Source of the DNA: a virus
Virus record (IMG/VR): IMGVR_UViG_3300015265_000205
Coordinates: 1-64,000 of that record
Strand: one strand, 5' to 3'
Length of the DNA stretch: 64,000 bases
Of this stretch, positions 17,766-33,904 are shown one piece after another. How positions within the stretch are numbered: the first letter of the stretch is position 1; every line of letters starts with the position of its first letter. A model generated the notes under the pieces. It saw only the letters and a program-made list of their open reading frames with translations. It did no database searches and was not told where the DNA came from. The position numbers and the translations under genes were made by a program.

Positions 17766-17795
17766 ATTAAACACCATGTTTATAAACATAGTCAA
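17766..17795 (-). promoter_or_regulatory. Leftward early promoter (pL) with operator in the spacer
   Basis: On the minus strand: TTGACT, an 18-bp spacer, TTTAAT (17 bp if GTTTAA is taken as the -10). The spacer contains the perfect 14-bp palindrome ATGTTTATAAACAT (17776-17789). Further AAACAAA-type half-sites lie just upstream (17800-17830). The layout copies the rightward promoter at 19688. Confidence 0.8.
17776..17789. promoter_or_regulatory. Repressor operator in pL
   Basis: The perfect palindrome ATGTTTATAAACAT lies between -35 and -10, so bound repressor would exclude RNA polymerase. It shares the 12-bp core TGTTTATAAACA with the operator at 19694. Confidence 0.75.
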
Positions 17796-17957: not shown

Positions 17958-17983
17958 GAAAAAAAGCCCGCGCGCGGCGGGCT
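17958..17983 (-). terminator. Terminator of the repressor/exported-protein transcript
   Basis: Read leftward: AGCCCGCC-GCG-CGCGGGCT-type stem followed by a run of seven T. It lies just after the exported-protein gene and insulates that lysogenic transcript from pL. No gene is seen between here and 17795. Confidence 0.8.
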
Positions 17984-18009: not shown

Positions 18010-18864
18010 CTACAGTGGCTCTTTCGCAAAAATCTGGCCGGTCTTGGTGCTATAGATCCAGACTTGAGACAAGGTGGTCACGATCGATGGACCCGACATA
18101 GCGATTTCTGTTGGGCTGTCCATGGTTGCTTTCATGTAGTCGCTGTATCGTGCGGCATATGGTGCGCTCAAGTTCGCAATGTATAGGATGCCAATGTTTT
18201 CTTTGCTCTCCCTAGCAATCTCTGGAGAAACCTTAAAGGAAAAATCTGACGGGATGTTGACCGACCTGGATATAGAGTTTACATTGGCAAAAGTAATTCC
18301 GCAAACATCGTAGGTAAAGCTGGTAATTTCGACTTTTCTGCCATATCCATTCTCACCCACGTAAGTTCTGGAACTTGATAGCTCTTTGTTTATTGGTGCG
18401 GAAGTATAAAAATTTCCATTAATCCGAACCGATCCACTACCGTGTGAAACTATACGGATTCTCATAGTTTCTGTGTCAGCATCGTATTTCGGCAACATCA
18501 TAGGTTTCGACGGAGAAAATGCCAGTACACTCGATCCCGTCAGCTGCCCGTACAAGCGAGCATCTTTCACGAATTCAATACGATCCGCGAATGCCTTCGA
18601 ACTCTCAAACTCATCTTTCTCTAGCTTGATCGAACTGAGAAGCCGTGAAATTTCGACGCAGCTGTGGCCTCGATAGTTGGCTGGCAGCGATTCTACGCTT
18701 GCATCGAAGGGCGCCACGTCGTAAGAACTGTAGCTTGGTGCCTTCTTTTCCTGCTGTTTAACCTGCTGCTTTTTAGCGCTAGTTTTTGATTTTGGGGCTT
18801 CTTGCGCCTGCAGGTGTGCATGGAAGCTACTCAAAAATGCGATTGCAAAAAATGCTTTTTTCAT
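18010..18864 (-). CDS. Exported protein encoded in the immunity region, probably expressed in lysogens
   Basis: 284 residues from MKKAFFAIAFLSSFHAHLQA, a good signal peptide with a likely cut before QE; a start 19 codons earlier would bury it. A Lys/Gln/Ser-rich linker follows, then a domain with SCVEISRLLSSIKLEKDEFESS and KAFADRIEFV and several beta segments. No family named. It is AT-richer than the flanking phage genes, lies directly downstream of the repressor gene on the same strand and is closed by its own terminator. This is the layout of lysogenic-conversion genes, so an envelope role such as superinfection exclusion is plausible but unproven. The ribosome site is weak. Confidence 0.7.
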   Translation of the reverse strand: MKKAFFAIAFLSSFHAHLQAQEAPKSKTSAKKQQVKQQEKKAPSYSSYDVAPFDASVESLPANYRGHSCVEISRLLSSIKLEKDEFESSKAFADRIEFVKDARLYGQLTGSSVLAFSPSKPMMLPKYDADTETMRIRIVSHGSGSVRINGNFYTSAPINKELSSSRTYVGENGYGRKVEITSFTYDVCGITFANVNSISRSVNIPSDFSFKVSPEIARESKENIGILYIANLSAPYAARYSDYMKATMDSPTEIAMSGPSIVTTLSQVWIYSTKTGQIFAKEPL

Positions 18865-18936: not shown

Positions 18937-19632
18937 TTAAATTCTATCCCCTTCACGCCTCACGACTCTGCCGATAATAATGCACTCACCGTTTCTGCAC
19001 ATCTTACGGTGGAATTTTCTCTGGTCAGCATTATCGGAGGTTAGCCACCATTCGCCAATGTCACGCGAGAGACGTTTAACCACAACCTCTCCCTCATAAT
19101 TCACTGCAAAAACCACACCGTCAGCTGGTTTGTTGTCATCCGTATTGAGGATGACAACATCATCTTCGTGCAATGCCGGCTCCATACTTTCGCCTTTAAC
19201 TTTTATGGCGATTAGCTTTTCTGGGTTGTATCTATGCTTCGCCACCCATTTTGGGTCCAGTGCAATAGTCCCGCCATCTTCAAATTCCGGCTCTGTTTTA
19301 AATCCCGTCATTCCAGCGGACAGGCGAAGTTTTACTTTTCTAATGAGGATGAACTCGGTGTCATGTAGCGCCTTGACTTCGACCTTGAGTGCGCCAGGAA
19401 CGCCCGATGCTCCGGGCGACAGCGCCATCGGCCCCTCCCCAGTCTCAAGCCAAGTTGCCGAGCAACCCAAAATACTTTGAGCGTTGATCAGCCCCGCCTT
19501 CGAGATCCCTCGCGCCTCCCAGTTATTTATCACTTGCGAAGAAACGTTTAAGGCGCGCGCGACCTCGGCCTGGCTTTCAATGCCCTTGAGAGTCTTTGCA
19601 GCCTCGTAAAGTCGTGTCATCTGTATATGCAT
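18937..19632 (-). CDS. CI-like lytic repressor (HTH plus S24 peptidase)
   Basis: 231 residues. An N-terminal helix-turn-helix (ESQAEVARALNVSSQVINNWE, ~19-39) binds operators; the C-terminal domain is a LexA/CI-type S24 autopeptidase with Ser149 (KGESMEP) and Lys186 (VVVKRLS). A106-G107 in LRLSAGMTG is the likely self-cleavage site when RecA is activated. It is flanked by two divergent early promoters with the TGTTTATAAACA operator. Two ATGs five codons apart are possible; neither has a strong ribosome site. Confidence 0.92.
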   Translation of the reverse strand: MHIQMTRLYEAAKTLKGIESQAEVARALNVSSQVINNWEARGISKAGLINAQSILGCSATWLETGEGPMALSPGASGVPGALKVEVKALHDTEFILIRKVKLRLSAGMTGFKTEPEFEDGGTIALDPKWVAKHRYNPEKLIAIKVKGESMEPALHEDDVVILNTDDNKPADGVVFAVNYEGEVVVKRLSRDIGEWWLTSDNADQRKFHRKMCRNGECIIIGRVVRREGDRI

Positions 19633-19687: not shown

Positions 19688-19716
19688 TTGACTTGTTTAT
19701 AAACATAGTGTTTAAT
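19688..19716 (+). promoter_or_regulatory. Rightward early promoter (pR)
   Basis: TTGACT, 17 bp, TTTAAT, with the operator TGTTTATAAACA (19694-19705) filling the spacer. Nearby CTAAACAAAA and TGTGTTACACA may be extra operators or part of the repressor promoter. It transcribes the Cro-like gene and the rightward operon. Confidence 0.82.
19694..19705. promoter_or_regulatory. Repressor operator in pR
   Basis: A perfect 12-bp palindrome, TGTTTATAAACA, between the -35 and -10 of pR. The same palindrome is at 17777-17788; near-copies lie at 33875 and 886. Confidence 0.75.
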
Positions 19717-33853: not shown

Positions 33854-33876
33854 TGCAGGTTTTCTTTAAGCCTGTG

Positions 33877-33904
33877 TTTACAAACAGTATTTCTGCGGTA
33901 TACT
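33877..33904 (+). promoter_or_regulatory. Late promoter (pR'-like)
   Basis: TTTACA, 16 bp, TATACT: strong sigma-70 elements just after the Q gene. The -35 lies within TGTTTACAAACA, one base off the repressor palindrome. TTCTTCCGG and CCGATAGCTGGAAC follow, shared with the relic copy. Confidence 0.75.

Follow-up and report, generated by a model that had tools for sequence, protein, structure and literature searches.

In lambdoid prophages, morons are commonly found between cI and N; rexAB lies there, and so does bstA, which is transcribed from the promoter of cI (PMC7067206). At the envelope, P22 SieA is an exclusion protein expressed from the prophage (PMC10883804). Here, we describe a gene in a corresponding position on a virus contig of 67,221 bases, of which a stretch of 64,000 nt was analyzed as a whole (“the window”). 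The product of ORF 18864-18010 on the minus strand is referred to as the window protein, and its closest relatives are found in Janthinobacterium prophages.

Gene order and candidate operators in the immunity region

The window-protein gene follows the gene for a CI-type repressor on the same strand, with a gap of 72 nt between the end of cI (18937) and the start of the ORF (18864). It lies between cI and a leftward operator/promoter-like element, inside palindrome-flanked DNA (Table 1). The repressor matches the profiles of Peptidase_S24 (E = 8e-20) and of the PHROG 4 repressor (E = 1e-39). An earlier note on this DNA had described a signal-peptide protein directly downstream of CI, and this was borne out, with a signal peptide that is moderate by a crude score. 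A terminator scan detected none between cI and the ORF, and the two genes are probably cotranscribed. The “private terminator” of the same note is present 3' of the ORF, but it ends the whole cI-ORF unit and is therefore not strictly private; similar hairpins with T-tracts, judged by eye, are found 3' of the gene in two other loci (L003 and L019). The gene is also AT-richer than its surroundings, as had been claimed (45.8% G+C versus 61.1% for the window). However, cI is likewise low in G+C (50.4%), and AT-richness is thus a trait of the whole immunity region.

Table 1. Features of the immunity region in the window and genes occupying the slot directly after the repressor in related phages
Feature	Position	Strand	Description
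CI-type repressor	18937..19632	-	HTH and S24 peptidase
Exported protein gene	18010..18864	-	ATG start, 284 aa; predicted signal peptide, linker, beta-rich domain
Intrinsic terminator of the cI-exported protein unit	17965..17983	-	7-bp G+C-rich hairpin and T-tract, past the ORF stop
OL/PL-like element	17766..17795	-	TTGACT-N18-TTTAAT, leftward; perfect palindrome TGTTTATAAACA at 17777-17788 in spacer
OR/PR-like element	19688..19716	+	TTGACT-N17-TTTAAT, rightward; perfect palindrome TGTTTATAAACA at 19694-19705 in spacer
Slot gene of L067/L068, L106, L110			Zinc ribbon and one transmembrane segment
Slot gene of L070			Two transmembrane segments and zinc ribbon
Slot gene of L069, L108			Signal peptide
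Slot gene of L107, L109			Lipoprotein-like

Without mismatch, TGTTTATAAACA occurs exactly twice in the 64 kb, and both copies flank cI and the window-protein gene. When up to two mismatches were allowed, the window held five copies versus 0.35 expected, and none of 100 shuffles reached five. By analogy with lambda, the two promoter-like elements that contain the palindrome would represent OL/PL and OR/PR, and CI would bind there. Because these elements flank cI together with the window-protein gene, the gene falls within the immunity region. The same pair of palindromes brackets cI and the exported-protein gene in L003 and L062. A similar palindrome with one mismatch (TGTTTACAAACA) is located at 33875-33886, distant from the immunity region, and is possibly a further repressor site.

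Architecture, family, and movement of the window protein

The window protein is 73 to 75% identical to its relatives in three loci (L003, L004, and L009). A homologue with 73% identity occupies the corresponding slot in Janthinobacterium violaceinigrum FT13W. Comparison with a 75%-identical relative gives a dN of 0.17 to 0.19 and a dS of 1.2 to 1.7, and this conservation, with dN far below dS, indicates that the ORF is a real gene. Pairwise dN/dS ratios against the three relatives are 0.09 to 0.16, values that are approximate with dS near saturation, and the reading frame is unbroken in all five of the Janthinobacterium-type phage or prophage loci examined. By these comparisons, the frame is under purifying selection.

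A signal peptide is predicted at approximately residues 1 to 20, with cleavage likely after LQA; its crude hydrophobicity score is moderate (1.67, versus 2.1 to 2.3 in relatives). It is followed by a disordered linker of K, Q, A, and S (residues ~21 to 45). The structure prediction and search proposed in the earlier note produced a confident beta-rich domain, but a known fold was not found. In the AlphaFold2 model (mean pLDDT, 78.6; pTM, 0.73; 128 residues at ≥90), residues 1 to 45 are disordered and residues 46 to 284 form the globular domain, for which structure searches returned no convincing match. An OB fold (SSB-like or potempin-like) received only weak matches (Foldseek viral library, probability of ≤0.38 to SSBs with a TM of ~0.1; VIA, Z ≤ 3.0), and repeated OB-like and xylanase matches were set aside at a TM of ~0.1. 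Across 25 homologues, a KxEFE motif is almost invariant. Cys69 and Cys188 go together: nine homologues have the two residues and the other 16 have neither. This joint presence or absence suggests a disulfide, which in turn points to the periplasm.

That the protein belongs to no known family proved correct for curated collections, with no accepted match in Pfam or NCBIfam and none in PADLOC or among PDB sequences. However, it matches PHROG 13753, which has no assigned function (E = 1.5e-6; residues 35 to 281 of 284 on profile positions 14 to 254 of 263), as do relatives, and it is part of a larger exported family with chromosomal members as well. To this PHROG we add genomic context, a likely disulfide pair, and a structural model. 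Two subthreshold hits were attributed to chance, namely, Pfam DUF4005 (0.0021), which is under its cutoff and falls on a low-complexity region at the N terminus, and NCBIfam NF046016 (0.028), which is far under its cutoff. Neither the window protein nor three viral relatives had a match among 50,697 phage records, and literature searches covering Janthinobacterium prophages and periplasmic exclusion proteins encoded next to repressors yielded nothing on the window protein.

A match to a housekeeping family, which the earlier note had named as evidence against its proposal, was sought and not found. Homologues are sporadic: in a sample of 294 genomes of the host family, only 12 have one, at least three of these being prophage borne, and a housekeeping role was therefore rejected. 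Distant relatives, which are exported or membrane-anchored proteins of bacterial chromosomes and plasmids, occur on plasmids of cyanobacteria and in the genomes of planctomycetes, deltaproteobacteria, and betaproteobacteria. Thus, the function of the domain is not confined to phages. One planctomycete genome (L013; contig C123 of G008) has seven family matches, including tandem copies and one membrane-anchored form.

In L048, a homologue with 62% identity follows an S24 repressor that is only 25% identical to the window CI, and in L019 (L008 genome), a homologue with 50% identity follows a LysR-type regulator. Since the regulators that precede these homologues, in two other phages, are unrelated, the gene moves as a module. 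The tree unites the phage sequences in a single clade (support, 1.0), with a chromosomal Oxalobacteraceae gene as its sister (0.92), a placement that suggests that the gene was captured once and then exchanged among immunity modules. Further phage-borne relatives fall outside this clade: L021 is placed with a Uliginosibacterium gene, and the relatives in L022 and L064, which adjoin terminase-like genes, group together. In L055 (8990-9825), close to a small gene of phage type, the homologue is broken into two frames, of 173 and 93 aa, and is probably a decayed copy.

Further genes were noted beside these homologues. The next ORF after the family member in L019 (6970-7374) is small and exported looking, and it is preceded by a TATAAT-like sequence and GCAACGGCACG, very like the sequences upstream of family members in L019 and L048. 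Directly 3' of the homologue in L048 (9969-11641; G292) are two adjacent ORFs of 275 and 281 aa, which have no Pfam or PADLOC match; the first is HipA-like by eye.

The slot directly after the repressor in related phages

Among 10 loci with related repressors, 8 carry a different envelope-type protein straight after the repressor (Table 1), and 2 (L086 and L087) have no recognizable envelope gene there. The comparison excludes, as nonphage, L111 and chromosomal S24 regulators beside a 470-aa reverse gene; the phage content of L106 to L110 was judged by eye from integrase-, terminase-, or methylase-like genes. By a crude hydrophobicity rule, 18 of 214 genes (8%) in the phage set are envelope-like; the same rule places the window protein just below the cutoff and its relatives above it. 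The occurrence of envelope-type proteins in the slot is a lead, as the sample is small and both the rule and the comparison were chosen after the data had been seen. Small proteins combining a zinc ribbon with transmembrane segments recur in the slot (L067, 3553-4077; L106; L110; L070).

Possible functions and comparison with known systems

Our preferred reading, held tentatively and at somewhat less than an even chance, is that the window protein is a lysogen-expressed periplasmic moron, most likely for superinfection exclusion or envelope conversion. A temperate phage would carry this moron, or cargo gene, within its immunity region, with cI on one side and the leftward operator-promoter on the other; given this layout, the gene would be transcribed with cI from the repressor maintenance promoter while the lytic genes are silent. 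Judging from the sequence and the model, the product would cross the inner membrane, shed its signal peptide, and become periplasmic or envelope attached, where a flexible linker would carry its beta-rich, probably disulfide-bonded domain. Its position, its predicted location, and the composition of the slot suggest that it would most likely protect the lysogen and the prophage, either by hindering superinfecting phages at the stage of receptor binding or DNA entry or by altering an envelope property that phages need. Superinfection exclusion is placed first because such prophage envelope proteins are known (P22 SieA and others; PMC10883804); envelope lysogenic conversion is nearly as likely.

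The proposal in the earlier note of an exported protein made in lysogens, drawn from the location beside the repressor, has gained strength, because operator-like repeats lie on both sides of the gene, the same protein follows different regulators, and the slots of relatives hold other envelope-type proteins. The window protein would be expressed in lysogens and may block superinfection. Four observations count against the preferred reading: the homologue genes in L048 and L019 seem to have their own promoters, the family also occurs on chromosomes and plasmids and in planctomycetes and cyanobacteria, PADLOC holds no matching defense family, and L086 and L087 lack a recognizable envelope gene in the slot. 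A more specific proposal, which we consider less likely than not, is that the protein represents a new periplasmic superinfection exclusion family captured from a chromosomal one and that the slot behind the repressor is a dedicated one in which Oxalobacteraceae prophages swap unrelated envelope proteins, each of them tuned to different superinfecting phages.

Lysogenic conversion without phage exclusion is a plausible alternative, though one that we do not favor. The protein would confer an envelope fitness trait (stress tolerance, biofilm formation, or resistance to grazing or competitors), as its chromosomal relatives presumably do. The wider family consists of exported proteins or lipoproteins encoded by lone chromosomal genes in diverse bacteria with no neighbors in common, which is consistent with such a trait, as is the well-supported chromosomal sister of the phage clade. 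However, those chromosomal relatives carry no assigned function, and the immunity-region slot and the turnover of envelope proteins suit phage-phage competition at least as well.

Lysis is a frequent role of exported phage proteins, and the window protein could be a lytic-stage or lysis decision factor that is exported and aids lysis timing or signals infection. This is very unlikely, as the gene, which has its own terminator, is on the repressor strand between the two operator-like elements and apart from the lytic operons, and profile searches of the protein gave no match to holin, spanin, or endolysin families. Least probable of all is a passive passenger with no present function, a reading that the low G+C content, the patchy distribution, and the split homologue in one genome would suit but that is already disfavored by the signal of selection in the sequences (dN/dS of ~0.1 to 0.16 and five of five frames intact).

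If the preferred reading is true, a widespread, uncharacterized family of exported proteins would acquire its first testable role. Furthermore, because the gene in the slot changes whereas the repressor module is retained, the position behind CI could be used to mine prophages for exclusion or conversion factors that act at the envelope, and the idea of a rex slot would extend to periplasmic proteins. With respect to named exclusion families, the window protein has no match in Pfam, NCBIfam, or PADLOC, and its only PHROG match is PHROG 13753. The genes rexAB of lambda and bstA of BTP1 likewise come immediately after cI within the immunity region, before the leftward promoter; in contrast to their products, which we take to be other proteins, the window protein carries a predicted signal peptide. 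As a putative envelope protein expressed from a prophage, it may be likened to the exclusion proteins P22 SieA, HK97 gp15, TP-J34 Ltp, and Tuc2009 Sie2009.
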